Shown: positions 9,670 through 46,107 of the stretch, in pieces
Numbering within the stretch: the first letter of the stretch is position 1
Layout: each line of letters opens with the position of its first letter
DNA from: Colwellia sp.
GTDB lineage: Bacteria; Pseudomonadota; Gammaproteobacteria; Enterobacterales; Alteromonadaceae
Direction: 5' to 3'
DNA length: 64,000 nucleotides
NCBI GenBank assembly: GCA_016765685.1
Contig: JAESPR010000058.1
Coordinates: 5,425-69,424, forward strand
Made by a program: the position numbers and the translations under genes
Notes under the pieces: model-generated
The model's database searches: none
What the model saw: only the letters and a program-made list of their open reading frames with translations
What the model was told of the DNA's origin: nothing

Positions 9670-9700
9670 TCTTTTAAAGCTTCATTTTAAGGAATAAACT

Positions 9701-15263: not shown

Positions 15264-15370
15264 TAACTAAAACTAGGCGCTTTGCCTTGATTAGTTACTC
15301 AAATTCAAAAAAATCATAGCGACAATAAACAATTTATTGTCATATTTTACTTTGATCACGAGTGTTAACA

Positions 15371-16630
15371 ATGACATTTTTTTCAAAAAAACTGAACAGC
15401 GCAGCGTTGTGCTTAAGCCTGTCAGTTGGAGCTATTGCTTCACCAACTGCACCACATCAAAGCGTTTTAGCGGTAAATAAAAACGCTTGGTTAGTGCAGC
15501 AAATTAACCAACACCCCGATATTATTTCAGCACAAGCAAGCTTGAAAGCTGCATTTTCTAGTGCTGAAGGTCAGAAAAAAGCCCTTTACAATCCAGAGTT
15601 ATCTACTGATGTGGCTCGTGAAGGTGATTTCACTAATTTTACTGTCGGCATTAGTCAAACCATTGATTTATGGGATAAACGAGCGGTAAGAAGCTTACAA
15701 GCTGATGCCAGTTTGCAGCTTGCTCAACAAAACTTTAATTACCTTGTACAAGAAAAAACAGCACAAGCCCTGCAAGCCATCATTACTTGGCAAGCGGCAA
15801 ACAAGCTTGCTGTTATAGCCGCAGCGCAAGAGCAACAATTAGGTACCTTGCTTGATTTAGTCGCTAAGCTGCAAAAAGTAGGCGATTTGGGTCAAGTAGA
15901 TGCTGAACTAACCTTTTTAAGTTTATCGCAAACCTTAAATGAAACGGCTCAAGCACAAGTACGTCTCAAACAAGCGCAAGCTCAGTTAGCTGAATTACTG
16001 CCTGATTGGACGCCTAAAATGAAGGTTTTTCCTGCACAAGGTTTACCGTTAGCTAACCAACAAAACTCAATAATAATGCAGCAATGGTTAGCGCAGCATC
16101 CCTTAGTTTTAGCGGCTAAAGCGCAATGGCAAGCCAATAAAGGTAATGCTCAACAAGCACAACTAACAACTAAAGCAGACCCAACAATTGGACTTAATGC
16201 TGGCAAAGACGGTGGTGATAATAGCATTGGTTTAACGTTTTCAATGCCATTAAATGTGCGCAATAACTTTAGCGCTGAAGCGCGTGCTGCCAACCAACAA
16301 GCCATTGCTGCCGAGGCGAATTATCGCGCGGTATTTCGCCAGCAAAAATTTGCTATACAAGCAAGTTTAGACACGTTAAATACTTACCAAAAAAGCTATC
16401 AACGCTGGTCTACGTTGATGCAAGGGCGAGGTAAACGTAGCGAAAATTTATTGCAAAAACAATGGCAAAGCGGAGATATGAGCACCACCCAATATTTACT
16501 AGCGCTGCAACAACGTGCGAGTGGTTTAAATGCAGGTATTGAACTGCAAAGCCAATTTAAGCTAAGCCAAATAGACTGGCTGCTGCAAGTAGGGCAAATC
16601 AATAACGCCGTTAAACTGCTCGTTAAGTAA
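15371..16630 (+). CDS. czcC: CzcC-type outer-membrane factor (TolC family)
   Basis: A TolC-family outer-membrane channel subunit of an RND heavy-metal exporter, about 419 residues with an N-terminal signal peptide (cleaved near GAIA). Its two long helical repeats are rich in Gln and Ala (AQASLKAAFSSAEGQKKALYNPEL; LLPDWTP between the repeats). I prefer the ATG at 15371 over the upstream GTG at 15362; GAG at 15358-15360 lies 10 nt ahead. It is 36 nt before the adaptor gene and 107 nt after the CopL-like gene, so it sits in a copL1-czcCBA operon. Confidence 0.88.
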   Translation: MTFFSKKLNSAALCLSLSVGAIASPTAPHQSVLAVNKNAWLVQQINQHPDIISAQASLKAAFSSAEGQKKALYNPELSTDVAREGDFTNFTVGISQTIDLWDKRAVRSLQADASLQLAQQNFNYLVQEKTAQALQAIITWQAANKLAVIAAAQEQQLGTLLDLVAKLQKVGDLGQVDAELTFLSLSQTLNETAQAQVRLKQAQAQLAELLPDWTPKMKVFPAQGLPLANQQNSIIMQQWLAQHPLVLAAKAQWQANKGNAQQAQLTTKADPTIGLNAGKDGGDNSIGLTFSMPLNVRNNFSAEARAANQQAIAAEANYRAVFRQQKFAIQASLDTLNTYQKSYQRWSTLMQGRGKRSENLLQKQWQSGDMSTTQYLLALQQRASGLNAGIELQSQFKLSQIDWLLQVGQINNAVKLLVK

Positions 16631-16666
16631 CACTTAGCCAAATACAGAATTTAGGAAATTATAAAG

Positions 16667-18091: not shown

Positions 18092-18130
18092 GTTTCATAA
18101 GAGAAATATGTCACAAATTGGAGACAATAC

Positions 18131-21100
18131 ATGTTAAACAAACTTATTGACTGGTCTGTCACTAACCGATTATTGGTGATTATCGCCTTAATCGCGTTAA
18201 CTGCGTCAGCCTTTTTTATTATTCCAAAATTAAATTTGGACGCTTTTCCCGATGTAACTAATGTGCAAGTTGCCATTAATACCGAAGCACCAGGACTTGC
18301 TGCAGAAGAAGTAGAACAACTGATCACCTTTCCTATTGAAGCGGTGATGTATGCCCTGCCTGATGTGGAAGAAGTACGCTCTATTTCTAAAACCGGTTTA
18401 TCTGGCATTACTGTGGTTTTTAAAGAAGGCACTGACATTTATTTTGCCCGCCAACTGGTTTTTGAACGGTTGCAATCAGCAAAAGAAATGATCCCTGAAG
18501 GCGTTGGTACACCTGAAATTGGCCCTAATACTTCAGGTTTAGGTCAAGTCTATCAATACTTATTACTTGCTGATGAAGACTCAGGCTACGATACGATGTC
18601 GCTACGCAGTTTAAACGACTGGGTGGTAAAACTGTTATTAATGCCGGTTGACGGTGTTACCGATGTTTTAGCCTTTGGCGGTAACGTCAAACAATACCAA
18701 GTCAATGTGAATCCTTCGCGTTTATTAGCGTATCAATTAACGCAAGAAGATGTTGCTAATGCACTAGAAAACAACAACAGCAATGCTGGCGGCTGGTATA
18801 TGGACAGAGGTCAAGAGCAATTAGTGATTCGCGGCGTTGGCTGGTTAAATTCAGGCGAAGACGGTTTAAAAGAGTTGGCTCAAATTCCCTTAAAAACCAT
18901 TAACGGCACTGTCGTGCACTTGTCTGATGTGGCTAAAGTAGAATTTGGCAGCGAAATTCGCCAAGGTGCGGTTACCATGACCAAACGCACTTTTGATGAA
19001 AATGGCAATGCTAACGGCAGCCAATTCTTAGGTGAAGTGGTTTCTGGTATTGTCTTAAAACGCATGGGATCAAATACTAAAGTGACTATTGATGGCATAA
19101 AAAGCCGCATCCCGTTAATTCAACAAGCACTACCAAAAGGCGTAACCTTTGAGGCAATTTATGATCAAGCCGACTTAATTGAAAAAGCAGTTAATACCGT
19201 TGCTACGGCATTAATTCAAGCCTTTGTTTTTATTGTTATTGTTTTAATATTATTTCTACTTAATGTGCGTGCGGTGTTATTGGTTTTGATCTCAATTCCA
19301 CTGTCGGTTGGTATGGCGCTTGCGGTTATGTCTTTTAACGGTTTGTCTGCCAACTTAATGTCGTTAGGGGGTCTTGCTGTTGCCATTGGTATGATGGTTG
19401 ATGGCGCTGTGGTGATGATGGAAAATATCTTTAAGCACCTTTCTAACCATAAAGACCAACCTGATCGCCAACCCGAAGATGGTCATGATTTTACGGCGCA
19501 AAACGAGGCTATCCCCCCCGAAATGTCAGTGAGTTTACGTATTCAAATTGCCGCTCGTGAAGTCGCTAAACCGGTATTTTTTGCGGTCAGCATTATTATG
19601 GTGGTATTCGCACCTTTATTTACCTTAGAAGGCGTTGAAGGTAAATTATTCCAACCAATGGCGGTCAGCATTATGATTGCCATGGCCGCCTCTTTGCTGG
19701 TCGCCCTAATTGTCGTACCTGCTTTGGCAAGTTTCTTTTTTCAAAAAGGCCTTTCTTCTAGTAGCGGATCAGGTAACCAAAAAACACGTACTAGCCCGCT
19801 AGTAACAGTATTAGAAAAAGCTTATCGCAGCACATTAAGTCGCGCAATGAACGCTAAATCTGTGGTGTTAATTGGCGCAGGGGCGTTATTAGTTGGGGCA
19901 TTATTGTTAGTACCACAACTGGGCACTGAGTTTGTACCTGAACTTGAAGAAGGCACCATTAACTTGCGTGTGACGATGGCACCTTCAACAAGTTTAGCCA
20001 CCGCAATCAGTGTTGCCCCTAAACTGGAAAAAATTATTTTACAATTTCCAGAAGTCACTTATGCACTGAGCCGAATTGGTCGTGCCGAAATTGGTGGTGA
20101 TCCAGAGCCGGTTAGTAATATCGAAATATATATCGGTTTAAAAGATCATAACCAGTGGACTAGCGCACAAACCCGTCAAGAATTGCAAGGTTTAATGGAA
20201 GAAAAGCTAGAGCAATTCCCAGGGTTACTACTAAACTTCTCCCAACCTATTGCCACGCGGGTTGATGAACTGCTATCTGGCGTGAAAGCGCAATTAGCCA
20301 TCAAGCTTTTTGGCCCAGAACTTGACGTATTAGCTAGCCAAGGTCAAGCTATTGTTAAAGCAATACAAGGCGTTGAAGGTGCTCGTGATGTCGCAATGGA
20401 GCAAATTGCCGGTGAATCGCAATTAGTGATCAAACCTAATCGTCGCCAGCTATCTCGTTATGGGTTATCGGTGGGTGATGTCATGGCGCTAGTACGTGAC
20501 GGTATTGGCGGTCGCGAATCAGGTCAAGTGATTAATGGTAACGAGCGCTACGATATTTATTTGCGCCTTGCGAAAGAGTTTCGCGAAGACACCCAAGCCA
20601 TTGCTGATTTACGTTTGCAAGCGCCTACTGGTGCATGGGTACGCTTAGGTGACGTGGCTAGTATTGCTATTGAGTCAGGGCCACCCCAAGTGCGCCGTGA
20701 TGATGTGCAGCGCCGTGTGGTGATTCAAGCTAACGTGCAAGGGCGCGATATGGGATCGGTAGTACAAGATATTCGCCAAGCTATTAACGATAAAGTTGAT
20801 TTACCAACCGGCTATTCTATTGATATTGGTGGACAATTTGAAAACCAACAACGGGCTCAGCAACGCCTCGCGATAGTGGTGCCTTTATCTGTCGCCATGA
20901 TTGCCCTGCTGCTTTATTTTGCTTTTAATAGTGTCGGTCAAGCGGCGCTTATTTTAATTAATTTGCCATTAGCCATGATCGGCGGCATTGTTGCCTTATA
21001 TGTCAGTGGCCAGTATTTATCCGTACCTAGCTCTATTGGTTTTATTACGTTGTTTGGTGTCGCTGTGCTCAATGGTGTGGTGATGGTAGAGTCTATCAAT

Positions 21101-21382
21101 TTACGCATTAAAAACGGTAAAATAACCGGTGCAGAAAATATTGAAGAAGCCGTGTTTGAAGGCGCAATATCACGCTTACGGCCAGTATTAATGACCGCAA
21201 TAACCTCGGCATTAGGTTTAATACCGATGATTTTATCAAGCGGTGTTGGCTCTGAAATACAGCGACCACTGGCAACGGTTATTGTTGGCGGTTTAGTGAC
21301 CGCTATTTTCTTAACTTTGTTTGTATTACCTGTACTCTATGCACGATTTTCAAAAGGGAAAATAGCAGATATGCAAAGATAA
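18131..21382 (+). CDS. czcA: CzcA-type heavy-metal RND efflux pump
   Basis: A 1083-residue inner-membrane proton/metal antiporter of the HME-RND family. Twelve TM helices are expected, with TM1 near residues 13-33 and two large periplasmic loops. Typical sequences are NLDAFPDVTNVQV, GLSGITVVFKEGTD and GPNTSGLGQVYQY. The TM4 proton-relay region reads AIGMMVDGAVVMMEN: the DG and E are present, but the first Asp of the classic CzcA DFG motif is Ala. Metal specificity (Zn/Co/Cd versus others) therefore cannot be fixed from the name. GGAGA precedes the ATG; a terminator follows at 21425. Confidence 0.93.
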   Translation: MLNKLIDWSVTNRLLVIIALIALTASAFFIIPKLNLDAFPDVTNVQVAINTEAPGLAAEEVEQLITFPIEAVMYALPDVEEVRSISKTGLSGITVVFKEGTDIYFARQLVFERLQSAKEMIPEGVGTPEIGPNTSGLGQVYQYLLLADEDSGYDTMSLRSLNDWVVKLLLMPVDGVTDVLAFGGNVKQYQVNVNPSRLLAYQLTQEDVANALENNNSNAGGWYMDRGQEQLVIRGVGWLNSGEDGLKELAQIPLKTINGTVVHLSDVAKVEFGSEIRQGAVTMTKRTFDENGNANGSQFLGEVVSGIVLKRMGSNTKVTIDGIKSRIPLIQQALPKGVTFEAIYDQADLIEKAVNTVATALIQAFVFIVIVLILFLLNVRAVLLVLISIPLSVGMALAVMSFNGLSANLMSLGGLAVAIGMMVDGAVVMMENIFKHLSNHKDQPDRQPEDGHDFTAQNEAIPPEMSVSLRIQIAAREVAKPVFFAVSIIMVVFAPLFTLEGVEGKLFQPMAVSIMIAMAASLLVALIVVPALASFFFQKGLSSSSGSGNQKTRTSPLVTVLEKAYRSTLSRAMNAKSVVLIGAGALLVGALLLVPQLGTEFVPELEEGTINLRVTMAPSTSLATAISVAPKLEKIILQFPEVTYALSRIGRAEIGGDPEPVSNIEIYIGLKDHNQWTSAQTRQELQGLMEEKLEQFPGLLLNFSQPIATRVDELLSGVKAQLAIKLFGPELDVLASQGQAIVKAIQGVEGARDVAMEQIAGESQLVIKPNRRQLSRYGLSVGDVMALVRDGIGGRESGQVINGNERYDIYLRLAKEFREDTQAIADLRLQAPTGAWVRLGDVASIAIESGPPQVRRDDVQRRVVIQANVQGRDMGSVVQDIRQAINDKVDLPTGYSIDIGGQFENQQRAQQRLAIVVPLSVAMIALLLYFAFNSVGQAALILINLPLAMIGGIVALYVSGQYLSVPSSIGFITLFGVAVLNGVVMVESINLRIKNGKITGAENIEEAVFEGAISRLRPVLMTAITSALGLIPMILSSGVGSEIQRPLATVIVGGLVTAIFLTLFVLPVLYARFSKGKIADMQR

Positions 21383-24889: not shown

Positions 24890-25396
24890 TTATGCCAACG
24901 CTGATGAAGGTAAGACCCAATCGTCTCTCGGAAAATGACAAGTATAACCATTAGGTATTCTTTGCAAATAATCTTGATGTTCGACTTCTGCTTCCCAAAA
25001 ATTACCTGCTGGCGCTAATTCAGTTACTACAGGCCCCGGCCAAAGCTTTGTGGCATTAACATCATCGATAGTTTTTAACGCTTCAGCTTTTTGTTCGTCA
25101 GAGCAATAATAGATAGCTGAGCGGTATGAAGCCCCCCTATCGTTACCTTGTTGGAGCTTTGTTGTTGGATCATGTATTTGAAAGAAAAATTCAAGTAGGT
25201 TACGAAAAGTGACCTGCTCGTTATTGAAAACTATTTCTAGTGCTTCGGCATGACTGCCATGATTACGGTAAGTTGCATTGGCAACGTCACCACCCGTGTA
25301 ACCAACTCGAGTCGAGGTGACACCAGGCATAACTCGTATCAAATGCTGCATGCCCCAGAAACAACCGCCAGCCAAAATAGTGCGTTCAATTGTCAT
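24890..25396 (-). CDS. msrA: Peptide methionine-S-sulfoxide reductase MsrA
   Basis: A 168-residue enzyme that repairs the S-epimer of methionine sulfoxide in proteins. It has the catalytic GGCFWGMQ (Cys nucleophile), [12 protein letters not shown], the HAEALEI segment, FFQIHDPT and the C-terminal [10 protein letters not shown]. Position three after FW is Gln rather than the Glu of E. coli MsrA, as in a known MsrA subgroup. Its start codon overlaps the msrB stop by 4 nt (ATGA), so the two are translationally coupled. Confidence 0.95.
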
Positions 25397-25845
25397 TTTG
25401 TTATATCCTCTACGGTATTAATATAGTCGCCATAACCTTGGTTGACCATTTCATTTTGATGAATGAAACGCAAAGAGGCTGAATTAATGCAGTAACGTAG
25501 CCCACCGCTATTGCTTGGTCCATCAGTAAATACGTGTCCTAAATGACTATCACCATGACTCGAACGTACCTCAGTGCGAGCCATACTGTGACTAACATCC
25601 TTTAATTCTCGTACATTTTTAGGCGCTATCGGTTTAGTAAAACTTGGCCAACCACAGCCAGATTCATATTTATCAGAGGAAGCAAAAAGCGGCTCGCCTG
25701 AAACAATATCTACATAGATGCCCGGCAGCGTGGTATTAAGATGCTCACCGCTACCCGGGTGCTCAGTACCATTTTTCTGTGTTACTCGATATTGTTCTTT
25801 TGTTAGTGCTGCAATGGCCTCGGTAGACTTTTGATATAGGGTCAT
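25393..25845 (-). CDS. msrB: Peptide methionine-R-sulfoxide reductase MsrB (zinc-less type)
   Basis: About 150 residues, acting on the R-epimer of methionine sulfoxide. It shows the SGCGWPSF motif, [13 protein letters not shown] and the catalytic Cys in [11 protein letters not shown]. The two CxxC pairs that bind structural zinc in E. coli MsrB are absent ([13 protein letters not shown] replaces the first). The ATG at 25845 sits 7 nt after GGAG and is preferred over the GTG one codon upstream. First gene of the msrBA operon. Confidence 0.93.
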
Positions 25846-25982
25846 CACTTTTCTCCTATCTTGTTGTGCTAGCTTGTTTTAGCTAATATTAGGTTGATTT
25901 ACTATGATTTATACTTGCGTAAACAGGAATAATAATGTTAAAAGTACTTTATTCGCTTTCATAATAAACTCCGCTTTATTGT

Positions 25983-32063: not shown

Positions 32064-32474
32064 TTAAGTTAATATCGGAGGGCGTAACGGATTGGTTTGA
32101 GGTTGAGAAATAAAATTAACCATCCGTTTTTCATAGATATCAGCATGACTTGGCAAATAAAGAATAAGGTCAACCTTAGTGATTAGTGCTGTAGTTATTT
32201 GACCAACAACGGGTATGGTACAATCACACTCAACGCAAGCACAACTTTCCATTTCTATTTCCATATACTGTTCATGTTCAGCAAAAAGATGCTCATTTAT
32301 GCTTTGATGTGATTTCGAATGATGATCATGTATTTTCAAAGCATCTAAAGCAGATAAAGTTGTCATATAATTGACAGCCATAGATTGGCAAAGGTGTACA
32401 GGCACGGCAAATAAATTACCGTTTACCAATAAATATATTAAAATACTTAATAGCCAGTTCAACCTATATGTCAT
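32064..32474 (-). CDS. CopL-like small secreted Cys/His protein 2
   Basis: A 136-residue protein: signal peptide (to about NLFA), a His-rich central part (DHHSKSHQS, AEHEQ), the cysteine cluster ESCACVECDC and a C-terminal LRPPILT. This is the same architecture as the proteins at 14913 and 45700. It is the first gene of the unit with the porin and diheme cytochrome (178 bp ahead of the porin). The ATG has no strong ribosome binding site. It probably binds Cu/Zn-type metals in the periplasm or acts as a metal-responsive leader; the function is inferred from CopL. Confidence 0.6.
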   Translation of the reverse strand: MTYRLNWLLSILIYLLVNGNLFAVPVHLCQSMAVNYMTTLSALDALKIHDHHSKSHQSINEHLFAEHEQYMEIEMESCACVECDCTIPVVGQITTALITKVDLILYLPSHADIYEKRMVNFISQPQTNPLRPPILT

Positions 32475-34376: not shown

Positions 34377-34880
34377 TTAATGCTTATGTGCTTTCTTAGG
34401 ACGGTAATCACGACCTGATGAATGGCTATGTACTACTTTCCATTCACTGTCTATTTTACGAAAGAGAAAAGTTTGATAACCACTTTTATCTAATTCACGA
34501 CCACTTTTTTTCAATTTTGCTTTAAAACGCGTATCTGCAACTGCCCAAGCAAAGCTTTTATCGCTGCCTTCAATGTGCACTTCAATGTCATTAAAATCGA
34601 GTACCATGTATTCCATCGCCCCTTTTTCAGGCTCAACATGATGACTAACTAAGCTATCTAGTCCTGGATTTTGACCACCGTTTTCAATATAGCGTGCTCC
34701 TTTAAAATCAAGAAATGTTTTTCTAAACGGCGTACCGTCGCCATTTTCCCAACCATATTTAATGCCCGCAATAATATCAATAATGGCTTGTTTATCTTTG
34801 TCTGCATGTTTTTCGTCACTGTGAGCTAACGTTGAAAAACTCAGTATTAATAACATCATTGTGGTAATAATTTTAATCAT
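34377..34880 (-). CDS. Secreted NTF2/SnoaL-like protein
   Basis: A 167-residue protein with a signal peptide (cleaved near TLAHS) and an NTF2-like cone fold of the DUF4440/SnoaL kind ([20 protein letters not shown], then [20 protein letters not shown]). Both ends are His-rich ([17 protein letters not shown]). AAGGAA precedes the ATG. It is the last gene in the Cus-type series and lies 140 bp after the cytochrome gene. Role unknown; it may be a periplasmic metal- or ligand-binding protein. Confidence 0.65.
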
Positions 34881-35022: not shown

Positions 35023-35562
35023 TTAATCTATTGCGGTCAATACTTGATACTGTTCTGGTGTCAAGTTTGGTAATTGTTTCATAAAAGCAACCATAGCCCA
35101 GATGCGTTGATCATCATGAGTTATACCCCAAGCAGGCATTCCTGAAGCTTTAATACCGTGTTTAATCACCCAGAAATTTTTCCGCGCAGTTTGATCTGCA
35201 TCATCATCGCCATGTTCTTCATGACCATGATCTTCGTGAGTAAGCGCCAAGTTAGGTGGCGCAGGATATAATCCCAAACTCATATCACTTTCTTTTTGGC
35301 CAGGTTTTAAATGACAAGTTGAACACATAAATTCGTAATCTGTACCTCCCGTTAGTAGTAATTCTGGGTCACTTAAATCTGGCACGACAATATTACGAGA
35401 TGCTTTAGCAATGGAATTTTCTCTGGTTTCTTCTAAAAGCCAATAGACTAAATCACTATGGGGTTCATCCGCAGCAACATTGACAATACCTGAATACATA
35501 ACGGTAGTGCCTGCACCTAAGCCCAACACTGCAAGCAGTAATAAAAGTTTACTTATTTTCAT
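35023..35562 (-). CDS. Monoheme c-type cytochrome with His-rich insertion
   Basis: About 179 residues with an N-terminal signal/anchor (LLLLLAVLGLGAGTTVMYS), one heme c site (MCSTCHLKPG) and a likely Met ligand in ASGMPAWG. Between them is a His/Asp/Glu insertion (HEDHGHEEHGDDDAD) suited to metal binding. The ATG at 35562 has GAGGAA upstream and is chosen over the GTG two codons earlier. It lies in the Cus-type gene series, next to the DHSKM protein and the PepSY-NqrF fusion, so it may accept or donate electrons there. Confidence 0.85.
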   Translation of the reverse strand: MKISKLLLLLAVLGLGAGTTVMYSGIVNVAADEPHSDLVYWLLEETRENSIAKASRNIVVPDLSDPELLLTGGTDYEFMCSTCHLKPGQKESDMSLGLYPAPPNLALTHEDHGHEEHGDDDADQTARKNFWVIKHGIKASGMPAWGITHDDQRIWAMVAFMKQLPNLTPEQYQVLTAID

Positions 35563-35639
35563 TCTCACTTCCTCACAAGTTATTGGCCACTGATTACTGA
35601 TGTTTTAAACACCAATAATAAGTGACTTATAATGATTAA

Positions 35640-35945
35640 TTAATGGTCCTGTGCGTTATGACCATCAGTTTTTTTGCTGCTGTGTTCATCTTTTTTCATT
35701 TTACTGTGATCCATACCTTTCATGGCTTTTTTAGCCGCTTTAGCTTGTTTCATGCATTTTTTCATCATGGCAACAGCAACGGGATCTTTCATATCCATTT
35801 TACTGTGATCCATACCGCTGCAATTCGCTTTCTCTGCCTTTTTCACATGAAACTTTGGATCATGTGCGTTAGCTGTTCCTGATAGAGTAGCTGATAAAGT
35901 AATGGTTGGTATTAATACCAAGGCGATTTTAGTTAACGTTTTCAT
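35640..35945 (-). CDS. Secreted Met/His-rich DHSKM protein
   Basis: About 101 residues from the ATG at 35945 (GGAGAGA upstream); the longer ORF of the track runs into the previous gene. It has a signal peptide (cleaved after TANA), then a mature chain containing GMDHSKM twice (CSGMDHSKMDMKD and MKGMDHSKMKKDEH), a Cys pair and a Lys/His-rich tail. MDHSKM-type Met/His motifs bind Cu(I)/Ag(I) in CopA- and CopB-type periplasmic proteins. It is likely a periplasmic copper buffer of the Cus-type series; the family name is unknown to me. Confidence 0.75.
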   Translation of the reverse strand: MKTLTKIALVLIPTITLSATLSGTANAHDPKFHVKKAEKANCSGMDHSKMDMKDPVAVAMMKKCMKQAKAAKKAMKGMDHSKMKKDEHSSKKTDGHNAQDH

Positions 35946-35979
35946 TTTTTCTCTCCTACTAGTTAGTAAATAAATATTA

Positions 35980-37842
35980 TTACGAGAATACATCGAAAGC
36001 AATATCGCTTTCTTGCACTCCTTTTTCTTTTAATAAGCTCATTGTTTCTGTCATCATGCTTTGTGGGCCACATAAATAGAACTCTAAATTATCAATGCTG
36101 TCCAAATTATCGAGATTCAACTCAAGTAGTTGTTGACCATATCCTGTCGCCCCTAACCACTCATCATTTGCCTGCGATAATGTCGGATAATAATGAAAGT
36201 ACTCATGCTCAAGTGCTAACTGATAAAACTCTTTTGCATAAAGTAAATCACTTTCCTTACGTGCGCCGTAGAAAAAATGAATAGGACGATTATTACCCCC
36301 TGCGTCATTCTTATTTTTCTCATTTATCGCTATTTGCTCTTCAATTAATGCTTTTAACGGTGCCATTCCTGAACCAGCACCTAACATGACCATGGTTTTA
36401 GTGCTGTTAGGGGCGGCAAAGAATTCTTCAAAAGGACCAATCGCGTCAATGGATGCTCCGAGTGATAAATTACAAAGATAACTAGAACCAACACCAGGTA
36501 TCACTTTATGATCCGGAGCCGTCTGAATTTTAACGGTAAAAACAAGTTCTCCATTATTTGTTGAAGGTTCAGCTAGTGAATAACTGCGCGTACAGGCGAG
36601 GTGTTCATATTCCAAGTGATCAATATGATGCCAGTGAGGTTTTAAATTCTCAGGCAAATTTAACGGAATTGAAACACCTTTAGCGGCAGGAATAAAAAAG
36701 CGCATAAAGGCACCCGCTTTATAAGGAAGTGCCGGTTCATCTTTAACTTTAAACCGTAACTCTTTCATGAACGGGCTAACAAAACGGCTAGCAGATAATA
36801 CCAAGGCATGTTTTTTTGCCTCGGTAACATCCATTAACGTCATGTGTTCAACATCAGTACTAAAATGCTGACAAGCTAGGCGGAAACCTTGTTGTAATTC
36901 TTTGTCGGTGAAGTGCAGCTGATCTGCTGATGTTGGTGTGCTCACTGGACTTATCATTACTTTACAACGACCACAGGTACCACCACCGCCACAAGTTGAA
37001 GGTAAGGCAATATCGTGTTCAATAAGACCATCTAACAAGTTTTTGTGATTTGAAAGCTTGACTGTACCCATGCTTTTTTGGTTTTTATCAAATAACTTCA
37101 CCCCTTGAACTTTTGAAAAATACTTAACTCGGTATTGTCCACGTAAACCAAGATCTATAGTCCAAATCAAGCCAGTAAGACTTAACCATAGAGTAACAAA
37201 GGCAAAAATTATTATTTGCAGACTATTAAAGCCCGGCTCTCCTCCTAAAAAGGAATAATCCATAAAGTGCAACATGAAAAAGAAATCAGCGAAACGTTTA
37301 TCCTCATCACTATGACCAACAAGTCGCCCTGAGCCTTGTTCTACATAAACACTGGTATAAATATTATCGGAAAAGTTAATTTGCCAAGTAGCATTTTTTT
37401 GCCTAGCAAAATCTTCTATCTTACCGGTAATTAACTCTGTGGAAACAATATTCCCAGGCCCCGTATATGATTTGAGTGCGATTTGTTGAGCAAAGCTTTG
37501 ATCAATCACTTTCTTCTCACCAGAATAGGCATCAACTAAGGTATATTCATTTTCAAAATTACGGTACAAACCTTTTACATGGGTTAACAAATAGAAAGGT
37601 TGTCCTAAAATGTTAGTAGGCGTTATTGATACACTGGGTTTGAACTTTTCAAGTACTTCTTTAAAGTCAACTAGACGGCTACTGTCAACATTCACCACCT
37701 GTTTTTGTGTGCTTCGGTATGTATGACCGCCCGCTTTAGTATGATCCATATTATTGAAAAATATACCGCTAGCTAACCAAAGTAAAAATTGGATACCGAC
37801 AAAAACAGAGGTCCATTTATGAATTTTTCGTATAAAAGGCAT
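35980..37842 (-). CDS. PepSY membrane domain fused to NqrF-like NADH reductase
   Basis: A 620-residue fusion. Residues 1-240 form a PepSY-TM unit: helix 1 with IHKWTSVFVG, a periplasmic domain, HFMDYSFLG (His192), and helix 2 near 208-230. Residues 245-340 form a [2Fe-2S] domain with Cys284, Cys290, Cys293 and Cys324 (CGGGGTCGRC), spaced as in NqrF. Residues 345-620 are a ferredoxin-reductase module: FAD-binding TRSYSL (418-423), NAD-binding GAGSGMAPL (488-496) and CGPQ (591-594). Predicted flow is NADH to FAD to 2Fe-2S, then across the membrane. His8 and His192 are candidate heme ligands. The start overlaps the previous PepSY gene (TAATG) and has GGAGGA. Confidence 0.88.
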   Translation of the reverse strand: MPFIRKIHKWTSVFVGIQFLLWLASGIFFNNMDHTKAGGHTYRSTQKQVVNVDSSRLVDFKEVLEKFKPSVSITPTNILGQPFYLLTHVKGLYRNFENEYTLVDAYSGEKKVIDQSFAQQIALKSYTGPGNIVSTELITGKIEDFARQKNATWQINFSDNIYTSVYVEQGSGRLVGHSDEDKRFADFFFMLHFMDYSFLGGEPGFNSLQIIIFAFVTLWLSLTGLIWTIDLGLRGQYRVKYFSKVQGVKLFDKNQKSMGTVKLSNHKNLLDGLIEHDIALPSTCGGGGTCGRCKVMISPVSTPTSADQLHFTDKELQQGFRLACQHFSTDVEHMTLMDVTEAKKHALVLSASRFVSPFMKELRFKVKDEPALPYKAGAFMRFFIPAAKGVSIPLNLPENLKPHWHHIDHLEYEHLACTRSYSLAEPSTNNGELVFTVKIQTAPDHKVIPGVGSSYLCNLSLGASIDAIGPFEEFFAAPNSTKTMVMLGAGSGMAPLKALIEEQIAINEKNKNDAGGNNRPIHFFYGARKESDLLYAKEFYQLALEHEYFHYYPTLSQANDEWLGATGYGQQLLELNLDNLDSIDNLEFYLCGPQSMMTETMSLLKEKGVQESDIAFDVFS

Positions 37843-38582
37843 TAAACACTTCCTCCTTGAACATTATCTTGACTGACAGCGGCAATGGTCTCTTTTTTAA
37901 ACACACGAAAATACGTTAAGATAAGTCCCATAACCGCCGCCACAATACTAAAAAGTGTGAACCAAAATAATAACCAGTTATCAATTTCACCATCACTGTA
38001 ATCCATCATATGAAAGTTAAACATCCAATCAAAAAGACGCCAAAACTCATGGCGTTTAGCCAATAATTTACCACTGGTTATTGAAATATAAAGTGATGGA
38101 CTACCGAAATTATCAAAATTTATCCGCCATGCGGGTAGTGAACTATAAACGCGACGACTTAACTCAAAAGGAGGATTGTCGGTAATTAATTCGGTATCAC
38201 GCACCTCACCACTCCCGGTGTACAAGTGTTTTGCGGCGGCTATAGCTTCACTTTCGGTTAATGGCGAAAGTTGTTTACCATTACTTGCCGTCACCAAAAA
38301 CTTTTCATCTTCTTGATTAAAACGATAAACTTCTTGATTAATAAAGATACCTAATTCAATTTTTTCCGCGTCTGGATAACGAATTAATAACTGCTTAAGG
38401 GAAAAATCAATCTTATTACTGTCAATTTTAGTTTGATGGTTTTCAATTAAGCTATCACCATGAATATAGTCAATATCAAAAAAGACCATATAAGCTCCGG
38501 TAACTGACCAAATTACAAATTGGACACCTAAAAATAACATTAACCACTTATGATATTTTCGACTAGTTTTTAATAAACTCAT
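37842..38582 (-). CDS. PepSY-domain membrane protein
   Basis: A 246-residue protein with two TM helices bracketing a periplasmic PepSY-like domain: helix 1 with YHKWLMLFLGVQ, the domain containing YTGSGEVRDTELI, FHMMDYSDG and helix 2 (LLFWFTLFSIVAAVMGLIL). It aligns by eye with the N-terminal third of the next gene (YTGPGNIVSTELI, HFMDYS), so it is a paralogue lacking the reductase. The HKW and FHMMDY histidines are conserved in both. It is coupled to the fusion gene by TAATG, which suggests a heterodimer in the inner membrane. Confidence 0.85.
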   Translation of the reverse strand: MSLLKTSRKYHKWLMLFLGVQFVIWSVTGAYMVFFDIDYIHGDSLIENHQTKIDSNKIDFSLKQLLIRYPDAEKIELGIFINQEVYRFNQEDEKFLVTASNGKQLSPLTESEAIAAAKHLYTGSGEVRDTELITDNPPFELSRRVYSSLPAWRINFDNFGSPSLYISITSGKLLAKRHEFWRLFDWMFNFHMMDYSDGEIDNWLLFWFTLFSIVAAVMGLILTYFRVFKKETIAAVSQDNVQGGSV

Positions 38583-38665: not shown

Positions 38666-41600
38666 CTAGCTTGATTCCGGTAAAGCTAAATCAACTTTAT
38701 TCTCTTCCTCAACATCTTTTTTCAAGCTTGTTGAGCGCCAAATGTAAAACAATACGGGTAGCACTAAAAGTGTCAGTAACATAGCACTGGCCATACCGCC
38801 AACCATAGGCGCGGCAATTCGGCTCATAACATTAGAGCCCGTACCCGTACCGTATAAAATGGGTAATAACCCAACAATAACGGTGCCACCTGTCATCATA
38901 ATAGGGCGAACGCGTAAACCAGCACCTTGTAACACGGCTTGCAGCAGATCAGCTTTGGTGGTGGTGATACCTTGCGCTTTATGCTCAGCCAACAAATGCT
39001 GATAAGCCTGATTTAAGTACACTAACATGATCACGCCTATTTCTACCGCAACCCCGGCTAAGGCAATAAAACCAACGCCCACCGCAACTGAAAAGTTAAA
39101 ACCTTCTAGGTACATTAACCAAATACTGCCAACCATGGCTAGCGGTAACGTACCCATGATCATGGCAACTTCAATGATATTTCTAAAATTCAAATATAAT
39201 AAAAAGATGATAATAGCCAAAGTTAATGGAATAACATAAGTGAGTTTTGCTTTCGCGCGCTCCATATATTCGTACTGTCCAGCCCATAAAATGGAATAAC
39301 CTGCAGGTAATACCAGCTCATCCGCAATCACTTGTTGAGCGTGTTGAACATAGGTACCGACATCTATGCCTTCAATATCAATGTACGCCCAACCATTTAA
39401 ACGCGCATTTTCAGACTTGATCGCCGGCGGTCCATCTTCAACATAAACATTAGCCACATCACCTAGCGAAATACGTTGACCATTCGGCGTAACAATTGGC
39501 AACAGTGATAATTGCTCAGGCGAATTACGGTAATCTTGTGGATAACGTATATTCACTGGATAACGCTCCAACCCTTCTACGGTTTGGGTGACGTTCATGC
39601 CACCAATAGCAGTAGCCACTACTTGTTGAATTTCTTTAATGTTCAAACCGTAACGGGCAGCTTTAGCTCGTTGAATATCCACTTTGATATAACGACCACC
39701 GGCAACTCGCTCTGAATAAACCGACGCGGTGCCAGGTACATCTTTTAAAATCACTTCAATTTGCTTGCCTATATCTTGAATAACGTTGAGTTCAGGCCCT
39801 GCTATTTTGATACCTACTGGGGTTTTTATCCCCGTGGCTAACATATCTATCCGGGTTTTTATCGGCATTACCCAAGCATTAGTGACCCCAGGTATTTTTA
39901 CTAAGGCATCAAGCTCTTTTTTCAAACTTTCTGTGGTCATGCCTTCACGCCATTCACTTTTAGGTTTAAGTTGAATAAAAGTTTCTATCATAGTTAATGG
40001 CGCAGGATCGGTTGCGGTTTCCGCACGGCCAATTTTACCAAAAACAGTTTTTACCTCAGGTACGGTTTTAATTAATTTATCCGTTTGCTGTAATAATTGA
40101 CGCGCTTGACCAATAGATATGCCCGGATAAGTAGTGGGCATATACATTAAATCACCTTCATCAAGCGGTGGAATAAATTCACTGCCAATTTTATCAATGG
40201 GATAAATACCAATCGCTAATACCGCTAACGCGGCAACTAAAGTAACTTTAGGCCAATGCAATACTGCATTTAACGCCGGCATATACAACTTGGTTAAAAA
40301 GCGATTTACCGGGTTTTTTTGTTCTGGTAGTATTTTACCGCGAATAAAATACCCCATTAATACCGGCACTAAGGTAATAGCAAGGGCAGCAGAAGCAGCC
40401 ATGGCATAGGTTTTAGTATAAGCCAGTGGCGAGAACATTCGTCCTTCTTGCGCCTCTAAGGTAAAAACGGGCACAAAACTTACCGTAATAATTAATAAAC
40501 TAAAGAATAACGCGGGACCTACTTCACTGGCGGCTTCCACTACTATTTTCCAGCGGTTTTCATCAGTTAATGGTGTCTTCTCCATATGTTTATGCATATT
40601 TTCTATCATAACAATAGCACCATCAACCATAGCACCAATGGCGATAGCAATGCCCCCTAACGACATAATATTAGCGTTCAATCCTTGCGCGTGCATGACA
40701 GTAAAGGCGGCTAATATACCCACAGGAATACTGATAATAACCACTAGCGACGAACGTAAATGGAATAAGAAGATAAGACACACTAAAGCGACTACGCCAA
40801 ACTCTTCTAACAATTTCATCGCTAAATTGTCTACCGCGCGCTCAATTAACGCAGAGCGGTCGTAAACAGGCACAATTTCCACGCCTTCAGGCAGGCCTTT
40901 TTTCAATTGTTCTAATTTGGCTTTTACGCCATTAATCACTTCTTGGGCATTTTCACCAAAACGCATTACTACAATGCCGCCAACGACTTCACCTTCACCG
41001 TTCAGCTCGGCAATACCACGACGCATTTGTGGGCCTGTGCCTATTTCAGCAACATCTTTAAGTAATAAAGGGGTGCCGTTGTTATTAACCCCTAGCGGGA
41101 TGTTTTCTAAATCTTCAACACTTTTGATATAACCCGTTGCTCTAACCATATATTCAGCTTCAGCCATTTCCACCACTGAGGCGCCAATTTCTTGATTACC
41201 TTCTTTGATCGCCATTTGGATCATCGACAATGGAATACCAAAAGCGCGTAATTTATCAGGGTTAATTTTTACTTGGTATTGCTTGACCATGCCGCCCAGT
41301 GCCGATACTTCGGAAACTCCCGCCACGGTTTGCAATTCAAACTTTAAGAACCAATCTTGAATACTGCGTAATTGACTTAAATCGTGCTTACCTGTTTTAT
41401 CTTGCAGCGCATAAATATAAACCCAACCAACACCCGTAGCATCGGGGCCTAATTGTGGTCTGGCTTTGGCGGGTAAATCAGGGGCTACTTGACTTAAGTA
41501 TTCTAAAACCCGCGAACGCGCCCAATATAGATCGGTATCTTCGTCAAAAATGACATACACATACGAATCACCAAAAAATGAGTAACCACGTACCGTTACC

Positions 41601-41836
41601 GCACCTGGCACCGATAACATAGCGGTGGTTAACGGGTAAGTGACCTGATCTTCCACTACTTGTGGCGCTTGGCCTGGAAAACTAGTTTTAATAATAACTT
41701 GTACGTCAGACAAGTCAGGCAAGGCATCAATGGGTGTATTCTTAACTGAATACAAGCCAGCGCCAACGATGATCATGGTGGCTAATATAACAAAAAATCG
41801 ATTTCCCACCGACCAGCGAATAATTGCTGCAATCAT
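38666..41836 (-). CDS. cusA: CusA-type Cu(I)/Ag(I) RND efflux pump
   Basis: A 1056-residue HME-RND inner-membrane pump. Diagnostic segments are LPDLSDVQVIIKTSFPGQAPQ, GVGWVYIYAL, TDPAPLTMIETFIQLKP, RIDMLATGIKTPVGIK and the TM4 relay AIGAMVDGAIVMIEN. These follow E. coli CusA closely, including methionines in the APLxMxET and RIDML contexts that correspond to the metal-binding Met cluster. AGGAG precedes the ATG. It is in operon order after CusC and CusB and before the PepSY genes. Confidence 0.95.
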   Translation of the reverse strand: MIAAIIRWSVGNRFFVILATMIIVGAGLYSVKNTPIDALPDLSDVQVIIKTSFPGQAPQVVEDQVTYPLTTAMLSVPGAVTVRGYSFFGDSYVYVIFDEDTDLYWARSRVLEYLSQVAPDLPAKARPQLGPDATGVGWVYIYALQDKTGKHDLSQLRSIQDWFLKFELQTVAGVSEVSALGGMVKQYQVKINPDKLRAFGIPLSMIQMAIKEGNQEIGASVVEMAEAEYMVRATGYIKSVEDLENIPLGVNNNGTPLLLKDVAEIGTGPQMRRGIAELNGEGEVVGGIVVMRFGENAQEVINGVKAKLEQLKKGLPEGVEIVPVYDRSALIERAVDNLAMKLLEEFGVVALVCLIFLFHLRSSLVVIISIPVGILAAFTVMHAQGLNANIMSLGGIAIAIGAMVDGAIVMIENMHKHMEKTPLTDENRWKIVVEAASEVGPALFFSLLIITVSFVPVFTLEAQEGRMFSPLAYTKTYAMAASAALAITLVPVLMGYFIRGKILPEQKNPVNRFLTKLYMPALNAVLHWPKVTLVAALAVLAIGIYPIDKIGSEFIPPLDEGDLMYMPTTYPGISIGQARQLLQQTDKLIKTVPEVKTVFGKIGRAETATDPAPLTMIETFIQLKPKSEWREGMTTESLKKELDALVKIPGVTNAWVMPIKTRIDMLATGIKTPVGIKIAGPELNVIQDIGKQIEVILKDVPGTASVYSERVAGGRYIKVDIQRAKAARYGLNIKEIQQVVATAIGGMNVTQTVEGLERYPVNIRYPQDYRNSPEQLSLLPIVTPNGQRISLGDVANVYVEDGPPAIKSENARLNGWAYIDIEGIDVGTYVQHAQQVIADELVLPAGYSILWAGQYEYMERAKAKLTYVIPLTLAIIIFLLYLNFRNIIEVAMIMGTLPLAMVGSIWLMYLEGFNFSVAVGVGFIALAGVAVEIGVIMLVYLNQAYQHLLAEHKAQGITTTKADLLQAVLQGAGLRVRPIMMTGGTVIVGLLPILYGTGTGSNVMSRIAAPMVGGMASAMLLTLLVLPVLFYIWRSTSLKKDVEEENKVDLALPESS

Positions 41837-41855: not shown

Positions 41856-43601
41856 TTAGTGACTTGAATGATCAGATGATTCTTCATTTGAAGCGTCTGT
41901 CATTGGTTTAATTTCAGTAATGATGAAGTTGCCATCTCGAATTTCAAAGGTAAAATCAACCATCATGTCAACAGCTAAGCTTGTTAAATTAACGCCTTCA
42001 TCCGCGATGAAGTCAACCGTTTCTGCTGGTCTATCCCATTTATCAATGGCACCACGATTAATGGTGATCATGCCATGATCTGCCATTAATGCAGTGATGG
42101 TACCCATAACAGTAGCGCGACTTACTTGTTTTTCTCCTAGCTCTATTGCACTAACAACATAGTCCCCTGTATCGGTTTTCTGGATTTGCACTTGTACCGT
42201 CAACCCTTCACTTAAGTTTGAAAAATCAACATCTTGGTTGGCAATAAAGTCCATAGTCATTATTGGCCATCCCCATGCACTAATCGCTTCATGCTCTAGG
42301 GTTAACATTTTATGCCCTGCCATCATGCTGATAATATTAGCCTGTACCCATACCGAAGTAGGAGCCGCTTCATCAACACCGTCATCATGGTTCATGCGTT
42401 TAAAATCTGACGTTTTACTTGATTCTGAGTCCAATAAAAATTGCGCTGAACTCACAACCATTTCACCTTCACTAATACCCGAAAGAATTTCAACACTCTC
42501 GCTATCAAAGCGCCCTACTTTCACTTCTACAGATTTAAAACTACCTTCGCCCAGTGCTAGTACCACTCGGTCTTGATTACCGGTACGAATTAAAGCTTCT
42601 TTAGGAATTAATAACGCACTTTTATCCGCACTGGTATGAATAGAAATTTGCGCAAACATATTCGGTTTAAACTCACCATTAGCATTATTAAAACGAATAC
42701 GTACTTTAACCGTACGTGTTTTGGCATCTAATGTTGGGTAAACATAATCAATTTTTCCTTGATAAATTTGACCAGGCAAATAGTCTAAGATCATCGTTAA
42801 TGGGGTGCCTACTTGTACTTGCGCCGCTTGACGCTCAAATACTTCAGCTTCAACCCAAACTTCACTTAAATCACCAATAGATAAAATGGTCGCGCCTGGT
42901 TTAACAAAAAAACCTTCACGAATTTTCAAGTTTTCAACGACACCTTTTTGTGGAGCATAAAAGGTAATGTTTTGAGAAACTTTTCTGGTTTTCTTTAATC
43001 TTTTAATTGCCGAGGTTGGAATTTGCAAAGCCATTAATCTGTCTTCAGCTGCCGTTATCAAACGCTTATTTTTACGATCTAACGCCAGTAATAATTCCTC
43101 TTGAGCATTGACTAACTGAGGTGAATATATATCGTAAAGCGCTTGACCTTTTTCTACTGGGTCACCAATGGCTTTTACATAAAGTTTTTCTATCCAACCT
43201 TCAACGCGCGGATGGATATGCACTAACCTGTCTTCATCGTAAGCCACATAACCCACTGTGTCTATTTGGGTATGTAGGGCTTTATATTGAGCGGTAACGG
43301 TGCGAACACCCAAGTTATTGACCACATCAGGTGAGATACGAATAGTACCTTTTCCTTCGTCTGGGCCTGAGCCGTCGTTACCATAATAAGGAATAAGATC
43401 CATGCCCATAGGAGATTTACCCGGCTTGTCGCGGGTATAATTTGCATCCATTGGTGCAACCCAATAAAGCGGTTTTTTCTCAGCCGATGCAGTATTACTA
43501 CCCGACTCGCCACCCGTAGGCATTAACACATTATAAATACCAAAAGTAAGCACCGATCCTATGACCGCACCCAATAGAGTATGTTTCATTGTAGAGCTCA
43601 T
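41856..43601 (-). CDS. cusB: CusB-type adaptor with two C-terminal CusF-like domains
   Basis: About 581 residues. The ATG at 43601, with AAGGAA upstream, is preferred to the TTG at 43622. Order: signal/anchor, a heavy-metal-binding motif (WVAPMDANYTRDKPGKSPMG, with the usual Cys replaced), lipoyl and hairpin regions, a beta-barrel, then a C-terminal extension of about 150 residues with two CusF-like OB folds. The first keeps the CusF copper ligands in context (LEHEAISAWGWPIMTMDF: His, Trp, Met, Met). The second (NRGAIDKWDRPAETVDF) has lost all four. In E. coli, CusF is a separate protein. It starts one base past the cusC stop. Confidence 0.92.
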   Translation of the reverse strand: MSSTMKHTLLGAVIGSVLTFGIYNVLMPTGGESGSNTASAEKKPLYWVAPMDANYTRDKPGKSPMGMDLIPYYGNDGSGPDEGKGTIRISPDVVNNLGVRTVTAQYKALHTQIDTVGYVAYDEDRLVHIHPRVEGWIEKLYVKAIGDPVEKGQALYDIYSPQLVNAQEELLLALDRKNKRLITAAEDRLMALQIPTSAIKRLKKTRKVSQNITFYAPQKGVVENLKIREGFFVKPGATILSIGDLSEVWVEAEVFERQAAQVQVGTPLTMILDYLPGQIYQGKIDYVYPTLDAKTRTVKVRIRFNNANGEFKPNMFAQISIHTSADKSALLIPKEALIRTGNQDRVVLALGEGSFKSVEVKVGRFDSESVEILSGISEGEMVVSSAQFLLDSESSKTSDFKRMNHDDGVDEAAPTSVWVQANIISMMAGHKMLTLEHEAISAWGWPIMTMDFIANQDVDFSNLSEGLTVQVQIQKTDTGDYVVSAIELGEKQVSRATVMGTITALMADHGMITINRGAIDKWDRPAETVDFIADEGVNLTSLAVDMMVDFTFEIRDGNFIITEIKPMTDASNEESSDHSSH

Positions 43602-43602
43602 G

Positions 43603-45027
43603 TTAATTTCCTTTTTTAGCAAAACTTTGTTGACTTAAAACAAGCTCACCAATAAATAAATAGTTTAATTCCAGATAAATTTTTTGCTGCTCAGTATCTA
43701 TATTCAAGGCCTCAATTTCGGCATTTAATACCGCAATACGAGCTCGAACTACTTCGGCAAAGTCGCCATCATCATTGGTATACGCGGTTAATGACGCTTC
43801 CGCTTGATCATGACTTTGTACTAATAAAATTTCTCGATAAAGTTTTTGCCTGTCATTTAAACGCAGCAAACGACCTTTACCTTTTGAGTAAGCACCTAAC
43901 AACTGCCTGAGTAATAATAACTTTTCTGTTTTCACTGCTTCTGTTTGATAAACCGCTGCTTTTACTTCTTGATCTTGTCTATTTTCGGTAAATAAAGGTA
44001 AGTCAAAAGTCACTCCCGCAGAAAATAAATCAGCGCGACTTCTGCCCATGGGATCATCACCACGATAACCATAACTGGCGGTAACGCCCCATTCGGGTTG
44101 GTATTTTTGTTCCGCTAATTTTATTCCCGTTTTGGTGGCGGCAATTTTTTTATCAACGGCGATAACCGCGGGGTGTCGATTAAAATAGGGAATGAGTTCT
44201 TCGGCCTGTTGCCAGTGTTGAGAAAAAATCAGATCAGATTTTAATAAATCAATCGTTGGCAAATTTTTCCCTAAGTTCATACCGTGTAGAGCCATACTAT
44301 TAATAGTGATATTATTTTGAGCGGTAACATCGCCAGAATAGTCACTTATCCATTGTAATAACTGACCTTCTAAGTTATTTTTTTTCTGGCCTAAAAGATC
44401 TAAGCGTTCATCTAAGCGGGTTAATTCTAATTGAGCGCGAACAAGATCTTGTTGCCTAGTTTTACCTATGGCTGAAGAATAACTTGCTTGGGCAACATCA
44501 GCGAGTTGCTCAAACAATGAACGGTCTTTTTCAATTAAGGCAATAGTTTGTTGAATACGAAACGCATCAAGCCATAATTGACCAACCGTTACCGCAACTT
44601 TTGCTTGTCGGTCTTGGCGTTGAAAAGGATAAGCTTGGCTTGCTTTTAATAATTGTTCATTTTTTATCGCTAACGTGTCACCACGAGGAAACATTTGCGT
44701 TATGCCCACTTTAAATTGGGTCATGCCCTCTTGATTTAAGTCATAACCATCGATTGGTACATTCGCCATAGCAATAGATATCTTAGGGTCTGGCAAAGTA
44801 TTTGCCACTTTACTCATTGACACAATAGCACTTTGCTTATAACGGTTTCCTGTTAACCAAGGATCGTTGGTTTGCGCTACCTTAATAGCCTTGGCAAACG
44901 TTAGTGCTGCTACATTTTTTACTGTCGACAGGGAATTGTTATCGGCATAAGCGGTAAAACAAGCCAACGATAAAAGACTTAACGCGCCTAATTTATGACG
45001 TTTAAACTGTTTCTTTAAGGTAAACAT
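43603..45027 (-). CDS. cusC: CusC-type outer-membrane factor (TolC family)
   Basis: A 474-residue TolC-family outer-membrane channel: signal peptide (cleaved near FTAYA), two helical repeats with TNDPWLTGNRYKQSAIVS and LPDPKISIAMANVPIDGY in the first and HPAVIAVDKKIAATKTGIKLAEQKYQPEW in the second. No lipobox is present, unlike E. coli CusC. Its start overlaps the DUF411 gene stop (TAATG), and the cusB start follows 1 nt after its stop, so the three are translationally linked. Confidence 0.9.
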   Translation of the reverse strand: MFTLKKQFKRHKLGALSLLSLACFTAYADNNSLSTVKNVAALTFAKAIKVAQTNDPWLTGNRYKQSAIVSMSKVANTLPDPKISIAMANVPIDGYDLNQEGMTQFKVGITQMFPRGDTLAIKNEQLLKASQAYPFQRQDRQAKVAVTVGQLWLDAFRIQQTIALIEKDRSLFEQLADVAQASYSSAIGKTRQQDLVRAQLELTRLDERLDLLGQKKNNLEGQLLQWISDYSGDVTAQNNITINSMALHGMNLGKNLPTIDLLKSDLIFSQHWQQAEELIPYFNRHPAVIAVDKKIAATKTGIKLAEQKYQPEWGVTASYGYRGDDPMGRSRADLFSAGVTFDLPLFTENRQDQEVKAAVYQTEAVKTEKLLLLRQLLGAYSKGKGRLLRLNDRQKLYREILLVQSHDQAEASLTAYTNDDGDFAEVVRARIAVLNAEIEALNIDTEQQKIYLELNYLFIGELVLSQQSFAKKGN

Positions 45028-45545
45028 TAAAACTGTTCCTTATAAGATTGAACGTTGGCATAAATCTCATAATTACCATCTGACGTTAATAATAATACTT
45101 TGTAAGGGTGAAACTTGTCACCCACTTCCATGCCGGGACTACCCAGTGGCATCGCGGGTACAGCTAAGCCGAGCACATTATCCGCATGTGTTTCTTGTAA
45201 AAACTGCTGAATAAATTTTGCCGGTATATGGCCTTCAAAAATATAACCCTCTTTGGAAATAGCGGTATGACATGAGCGATAGCGAGGGGCAATGTTTTTT
45301 TCGTCTTTAATGGTGGATATGTCTTTTCGATCATGAATGTTAGATTGAAATCCATTTACCTCTAAGTGGTCTATCCATTTTGTGCAGCAGCCGCAGGTAG
45401 GGCTTTTATATACATCCATGATCACCGCTTGAACTTTACTATTTTGAGGTTCAGCTTTTAGTGCTTCACTATCAGTACAACTGGCGATCAAAGCGATCGC
45501 AGTAAAGGTGGTAACCACCTTTAAAATAAATTTAATTGCAAACAT
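45027..45545 (-). CDS. DUF411 metal-binding lipoprotein
   Basis: A 172-residue protein with a signal peptide ending in a lipobox (LIASC, Cys23), so it is probably an outer- or inner-membrane lipoprotein in the periplasm. The DUF411 domain shows YKSPTCGCCTKWIDHL (three cysteines), RSCHTAISKEGYIFEGHIPA, AVPAMPLGSPGME and HPYKVLL. DUF411/CopG-type proteins are linked to copper and silver resistance. GGAGGG precedes the ATG. It immediately precedes cusC and is probably a metal-binding accessory that delivers copper to the pump. Confidence 0.88.
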   Translation of the reverse strand: MFAIKFILKVVTTFTAIALIASCTDSEALKAEPQNSKVQAVIMDVYKSPTCGCCTKWIDHLEVNGFQSNIHDRKDISTIKDEKNIAPRYRSCHTAISKEGYIFEGHIPAKFIQQFLQETHADNVLGLAVPAMPLGSPGMEVGDKFHPYKVLLLTSDGNYEIYANVQSYKEQF

Positions 45546-45699: not shown

Positions 45700-46107
45700 T
45701 TAACTTAATATTGGAGGTCTATAAAGAGAGGTTAACTGTTGGCTGTGCGCCGAATTGGAAACGAAAGTTATTTTAGATGATAAAACGACCGATAAATTAC
45801 TGCTAACGTTTTTAGTCAGCGCAGCAATATTCGAACAACCACTAGTAGCGCAATCACATGAAGTGACACAGCAGTCTTCGATAGATTCTTCACTATGAGT
45901 GAGAGTTGAATTACTAGGAGTATTATGATCATGATAAGCTAGAGCGGCCATATCGTGTGATTGTTCTTGAGCAGAGCTATTTTCCATATCCATCATCCCT
46001 GACATGTTCATCACATGGTAAGGCATAATAGTAGACGCTATGGTTTGACCAACAAAGATCAAACATAACAGTAATACCATCAATGTTTTAGGAAAATTTG
46101 AAAACAC
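45700..46107 (-). CDS. CopL-like small secreted Cys/His protein 3
   Basis: A 135-residue protein: signal peptide (to about TIAST), a Met/His-rich section (MNMSGMMDMENS, AYHDHN), the cluster DCCVTSCDCATSGC and the C-terminal YRPPILS. It has the same layout as the proteins at 14913 and 32064. The start is a GTG (46107) with a weak ribosome binding site. It is the first gene of the long Cus-type series, 154 bp before DUF411. It may bind copper or silver, or act as a metal-sensing leader. Confidence 0.6.
   Translation of the reverse strand: MFSNFPKTLMVLLLCLIFVGQTIASTIMPYHVMNMSGMMDMENSSAQEQSHDMAALAYHDHNTPSNSTLTHSEESIEDCCVTSCDCATSGCSNIAALTKNVSSNLSVVLSSKITFVSNSAHSQQLTSLYRPPILS

Follow-up and report, generated by a model that had tools for sequence, protein, structure and literature searches.

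The operon for Cu(I)/Ag(I) export in this Colwellia sp. genome carries, directly behind the pump gene cusA, two genes that probably encode an NADH-driven reductase of periplasmic Cu(II). The enzyme would be a split FoxB-type heterodimer docked on CusA that supplies Cu(I) to the Cus pump, a reading to which we give a probability of about 60%. It builds on features read directly from the sequences, namely the domain make-up of both proteins, their invariant cysteines and histidines, the constant pairing of the two genes, their operon linkage and the fusion of one of them to CusA in relatives. Cus pumps move Cu(I), and copper reaches the oxic periplasm largely as Cu(II). If true, a PepSY reductase that draws on NADH and is fused to CusA would account for the missing step from Cu(II) to Cu(I), and would be an example of an RND exporter that contains its own redox partner. 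CcoG was the only specific bacterial cupric reductase listed in a 2020 review (PMC7558416).

A PepSY-reductase gene pair within a Cus operon

The window (the whole stretch of 64,000 nucleotides analysed) contains a one-strand series of ten genes, which runs from a CopL-like gene to one for an NTF2-like protein and includes CusCBA, the DHSKM protein and the cytochrome c of the preliminary description. In their order along the series, these genes are:

45700..46107, minus strand, metal-binding protein of the CopL family, first gene of the series (NF033807, 47.6 bits, cut-off 40)
45027..45545, minus strand, DUF411 protein (domain match)
43603..45027, minus strand, CusC-like outer-membrane factor, OEP/TolC (domain match)
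41856..43622, minus strand, CusB adaptor, with a heavy-metal-binding domain at the N-terminus and two CusF domains at the C-terminus (domain matches)
38666..41836, minus strand, CusA, Cu(I)/Ag(I) RND pump (TIGR00914, 1266 bits; alignment with PDB 3t51)
37842..38582, minus strand, subunit B of 246 aa, which provides the N-terminal half of a PepSY_TM unit with H11/H191, without reductase
35980..37842, minus strand, subunit A of 620 aa, in which the C-terminal half of the PepSY_TM unit precedes [2Fe-2S] and FAD/NADH reductase domains of NqrF type
35640..35948, minus strand, small exported Met/His-rich DHSKM protein (from sequence; cluster found in 10/80 related loci)
35023..35568, minus strand, cytochrome c with a Cytochrome_CBB3 domain (domain match; cluster in 11/80 related loci)
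34377..34880, minus strand, NTF2/SnoaL-like protein with an apparent signal peptide (domain match; cluster in 16/80 related loci)

The window CusA retains the Cu(I)/Ag(I) methionine triad M573/M623/M672 of E. coli CusA, as read from the alignment with PDB 3t51. In CusB, the sequence of the first CusF domain keeps the W..M.M motif and that of the second is devoid of MxM copper ligands. The operon thus resembles CusCFBA in its CusA methionine triad, CusB, CusF domains and CusC-like factor. However, PepSY-reductase genes follow CusA here and CusA-B fusions exist in relatives, whereas we know of no electron-transfer partner in the E. coli operon. Promoter-like sites were no commoner than in shuffled sequences and terminator-like sites numbered 15 against 10.5 expected, so that these counts are of no help for the operon limits. 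A viral-contig scan gave no match.

Several other genes of the window deserve mention. The same metal island contains a mer-like group (8379-11155; MerR, a small MerT-like membrane protein, MerP-like and MerA-like proteins, named from sequence). A second RND metal pump, of CzcCBA type (15362-21382), has a His-rich DDGHGHG..ES repeat close to the N-terminus of its adaptor. MsrA- and MsrB-like genes, which bear on the methionine-repair alternative weighed below, lie near the island (24890-25848). Three small exported Cys/His-rich proteins (14910-15263, 32064-32474 and 45700-46107) end in a similar RPPI motif; the scan covered the last of them, which gave the CopL family match.

Both open reading frames of the pair were found with the TAATG coupling described earlier, the B stop codon and the A start codon overlapping by one base. 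Fer2 (37.3 bits), NAD_binding_1 (62.1) and FAD_binding_6 (22.0) pass the Pfam cut-offs in A, which upholds the proposed fusion of a PepSY-TM unit with a [2Fe-2S] domain and an FAD/NAD reductase, with PepSY_TM itself sub-threshold in A (22.6 bits, cut-off 28.8) and just above threshold in B (29.3 bits). Residues 5-228 of A and 8-223 of B are 29% identical (E=3e-19), and B was rightly recognised as a second PepSY protein with the same HKW and H.MDY histidines (H8/H192 in A, H11/H191 in B). In the AlphaFold model of A (mean pLDDT 89.4), two helices, at ~2-31 and ~208-233, flank a PepSY-like domain, and the reductase follows the second helix. In the topology that we infer for A and B, the PepSY domain of A, between its transmembrane helices, would be periplasmic and the [2Fe-2S] domain cytosolic.

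The reductase tail of subunit A

Cys284/290/293/324 of A, proposed in the preliminary description as [2Fe-2S] ligands, are invariant in 15 diverse fusion homologues, and so are the flavin and NADH motifs R419/Y421/S422, G488/G490/G492 and C591-G592-P593. This tail is closest to NqrF of the Na+-NQR, with which it shares the order of the [2Fe-2S]-FAD-NADH reductase and which provides the best PDB and NCBIfam matches of A (PDB 8a1t, E=1.8e-47); NqrF also ranked first in a Foldseek search with the A model (7xk3_F, E=2.8e-34). However, the PepSY_TM part of A replaces the NqrF membrane anchor and A is not encoded with nqrABCDE. We rejected the idea that A is an ordinary NqrF, since its score against the nqrF profile TIGR01941 (209.7 bits) is below the cut-off of 295 and nqr neighbours are absent.

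Subunits A and B as one split FoxB-type unit

In two related loci (L102 and L104), A and B occur in a single chain without reductase. The natural B-A chain of L102 (493 aa) covers positions 2-290 of the 295 of PF03929 with 68.4 bits. Since these natural fusions match the whole PepSY_TM profile, B and A together correspond to one split FoxB-type unit. Comparison of profile A1 with PDB sequences yielded no match, so the kinship with FoxB was established through an intermediate alignment: the pair matches single-chain PepSY_TM proteins from relatives in a profile-profile comparison (96.7% probability), and this single-chain family in turn matches FoxB (7abw) at 1.6e-29. We aligned these single-chain proteins and found four invariant histidines. 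Positions of the B H191, A H8 and A H192 type corresponded, in this order, to the second, third and fourth of them in one profile comparison, and in another one A H8/H192 aligned also with the first and second.

Among 98 distinct sequences of each subunit, A H8, A H192, B H11 and B H191 are 100% conserved. Based on the alignment with the invariant histidines of the single-chain PepSY_TM/FoxB family, each predicted heme would sit between the subunits, held by one histidine from A and one from B. The heme site within A formerly assigned to His8/His192 would thus give way to pairs with one histidine per subunit. Candidates for periplasmic metal ligands are other histidines conserved in the same sets (A H177, 91%; A H34, 82%; B H41, 97%; B H178, 93%). 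When A and B were aligned jointly to the natural B-A chain with MAFFT, both fell on one half and, for this reason, the chain was modelled with A-type rows only; this L102 model had a pLDDT of 75 with a poor N-terminal half, and FoxB was not among its fold-search matches.

Characterised PepSY_TM proteins reduce metal complexes directly, and the known members of the superfamily are ferrisiderophore reductases. The unit described here resembles the siderophore reductases of FoxB/FpvG type (FoxB, 7ABW) in its PepSY_TM family, four conserved putative heme histidines and presumed electron transfer to the periplasm, but it is split in two genes, includes an NADH-FAD-[2Fe-2S] donor and occurs in linkage with copper export.

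Pairing and Cus linkage in relatives

B lies directly upstream of A in 86/86 related loci. The module occurs in five architectures: the pair alone, the pair with only Fer2 on A (L049, L100, L101, L105 and L117, all in Cus operons), the pair with the full reductase, a single B-A-reductase chain of about 820-850 aa, and B-A without reductase. The reductase state has changed at least eight times on the tree. CusA was present within the fetched stretch in 41/52 loci of the reductase-bearing two-gene form (window counted), in 5/5 Fer2-only, 18/41 tail-less and 0/8 single-chain loci, as against 0/20 loci within ~10 kb of true nqrF genes used as a control. Some copper gene accompanies ~47/52 of the reductase-bearing two-gene loci, including most of the 11 that are devoid of CusA. 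The genome survey called for in the preliminary description, of whether the fusion goes with cusCBA or with siderophore or unrelated genes, therefore favours Cus for the two-gene form, and this Cus/Cop setting led us to reject a siderophore reductase.

Seen from the pumps of one family, the pair follows 15 of 40 sampled unfused CusA of Cu/Ag type and none of 20 CzcA-type pumps, the other 25 Cus pumps being without it; as all these counts share ancestry, the linkage p-values (8e-4 for this comparison, and 3e-10) are guides only. The stronger Cus association of reductase-bearing than of tail-less forms is only suggestive, because independent pairs are too few and the correlation was not significant on phylogenetically independent pairs. 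Tail-less forms also occur in Cus operons, so that the reductase tail either is not required or has a substitute acting in trans.

Cus operons are not the only setting of the module, since some forms lie beside TonB receptors and hut genes or beside housekeeping genes. The latter holds for the main single-chain clade. Single-chain B-A-reductase proteins of about 820-845 aa (L175, L176, L178, L180, L182 and L183) have a conserved housekeeping neighbourhood without copper genes; in L178, judging from sequence starts, it comprises hemL-like, carbamoyltransferase-like, chloride-channel-like and ErpA-like genes. Elsewhere, hutU/hutH or a HutC-like regulator accompanies the pair, often with a TonB receptor (L034, L036, L037, L041, L172 and L192), and a HutC-like regulator is also found in L039, L040, L043, L044, L046-L048 and L108; in several alteromonads such a regulator adjoins the pair.

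Translational fusion of CusA and subunit B

In 13 loci (L039, L040, L041, L046, L047, L048, L065, L084, L106, L107, L109, L190 and L191), B is fused through a short linker to the C-terminus of CusA. Full-length chains have 1278-1299 aa; the open frames of L040 and L047 are shorter, the former because the contig ends. ACR_tran and PepSY_TM were found in one chain in the two fusions tested with Pfam (L039 and L106), with PepSY_TM in L039 just below cut-off (27.0) and PepSY above its own. In an evenly drawn sample of 60 genomes of one family, 6 of 147 RND metal pumps had open frames of 1294-1302 aa. The presence of the fusion in 13 loci, including isolates of several genera, and the short linkers led us to discard a frameshift artefact. 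Fused loci do not form one clade (AU p=2e-75) and require at least six changes on the tree. The join is topologically feasible: from RND topology the CusA C-terminus is expected in the cytosol, as is the B N-terminus if the topology above is correct.

These fusions suggest that copper may be reduced at the pump entrance before export. Tentatively, at somewhat less than even odds, we propose a pump coupled to its reductase, in which a heme/[2Fe-2S]/FAD enzyme is physically joined to an RND exporter and NADH reduces Cu(II) at the periplasmic entrance, with the Cu(I) exported at once.

Proposed mechanism and alternative explanations

Under the preferred reading of a Cu(II) reductase serving Cus, A and B would form one split PepSY_TM heterodimer docked on CusA. 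Electrons would move from cytosolic NADH through FAD to the [2Fe-2S] cluster in the tail of A and then across two hemes, the first on the cytoplasmic side between A H8 and B H11 and the second on the periplasmic side between A H192 and B H191, before reaching Cu(II) in the periplasmic cavity. CusA and the CusF domains of CusB would receive the resulting Cu(I) for export. In this scheme, heme binding and the inter-subunit heme pairs are predicted from the alignment with the FoxB family, the direction of flow is the one expected from NADH/FAD chemistry, and copper is the substrate that the gene context points to. We infer docking on CusA also in the window organism, where B and CusA are encoded by separate genes. 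The trans-membrane metal reductase serving Cus, as first proposed, therefore stands as a well-supported hypothesis, with the CusA linkage (41/52 against 0/20 for nqrF) and the CusA-B fusions in its favour, but without its heme site within A.

The gene context fits Cu(II) reduction and other reduction at the pump alike. One alternative is that the pair acts in copper acquisition or redox handling of imported chelates such as Cu(II)-histidine, freeing Cu(I) from a chelate taken up through a TonB receptor, its placement in Cus operons being secondary. The pairs of Xanthomonadaceae, Massilia and Indioceanicola do follow a TonB receptor, mostly in copper islands; hutU/hutH lie near the pair in Xanthomonas, L172, Indioceanicola and the Colwellia locus L041, with HutC-like regulators in many loci; and the PepSY_TM protein CrpH, whose gene adjoins that of a TonB copper importer, supports oxidases (PMC13038864). 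These recurring hut genes and TonB receptors make a link to Cu(II)-histidine handling possible. However, the operons that contain the pair in Alteromonadales serve export, and fusions to the exporter CusA are scattered over the tree; we consider this explanation unlikely. Quite unlikely, too, is a repair role, in which A-B would supply electrons for oxidised methionines, or for further oxidised groups, in Met-rich CusF and CusA, as MsrPQ does for CusF in E. coli. The MsrPQ system of E. coli is induced in a CusSR-dependent manner and repairs CusF methionines (PMC9302797), and the heme membrane protein MsrQ is of a similar kind and can be compared in structure with PepSY_TM (PMC11334425). MsrPQ delivers electrons to the periplasm. 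Fusion to the pump would also fit local repair. Nevertheless, MsrPQ requires the catalyst MsrP, and we recognised no MsrP-like periplasmic protein among the recurring neighbour families, judged from cluster representatives; moreover, PepSY_TM proteins of known function act directly on metal complexes.

A different substrate, either Ag(I), Hg(II) or Au, or a general ferric reductase carried along, is very unlikely. Cus exports Ag(I) too, mer-like and Czc-like genes are present within the window and ferrisiderophore reductases are known in the superfamily, but the linkage is specific to Cu/Ag-type CusA and absent from the 20 CzcA-type pumps, and among the neighbour clusters we recognised no recurring family of siderophore synthesis or of mer type. 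The least probable option is that the pair exports electrons to the cytochrome c of the operon without direct metal chemistry: a cytochrome c gene does occur in the window series and in 11/80 related loci, but most pair loci have none.

Related systems and spread of the module

That no characterised system has this composition, as initially stated, held in the literature searched (subscription journals being thinly covered), in which no paper described a PepSY reductase as part of a Cus operon or as a fusion with CusA. The parts are of known kinds; their combination and the pump fusion are new within that literature. Close kin are 1,077 PepSY-like genes with an NAD-binding domain in flavinylation clusters (PMC8238504) and CrpH of Bordetella pertussis, a proposed periplasmic copper reductase of the PepSY_TM superfamily (PMC13038864). 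CrpH is likewise a PepSY_TM protein tied to copper, but it is a single chain encoded next to a TonB copper importer, is repressed by copper and supports respiratory oxidases (PMC13038864), and no reductase tail or pump linkage has been reported for it. In contrast with the trait of the CrpH subfamily (a single chain beside a crtA-type TonB importer), A and B are separate subunits, and the Cus series that encodes them contains no TonB receptor. The cupric reductases CcoG, STEAP, Fre and Dcytb share with the proposed role the membrane-bound reduction of Cu(II) but belong to other families, CcoG working via iron-sulfur clusters and the others being eukaryotic (PMC7558416).

Four loci (L088, L090, L091 and L114) whose genomes bear the names of different genera have an identical PepSY part of A, a sign of recent transfer or of binning error in MAGs (two of the four are isolates). 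Plasmids of Glaciecola, Salinimonas, Xanthomonas, Massilia and Indioceanicola carry the same pair, with copper genes around it in the regions read, and in the last three it comes after a TonB receptor. These plasmid versions, some of them in Xanthomonas copper islands, suggest that the module spreads with copper resistance.
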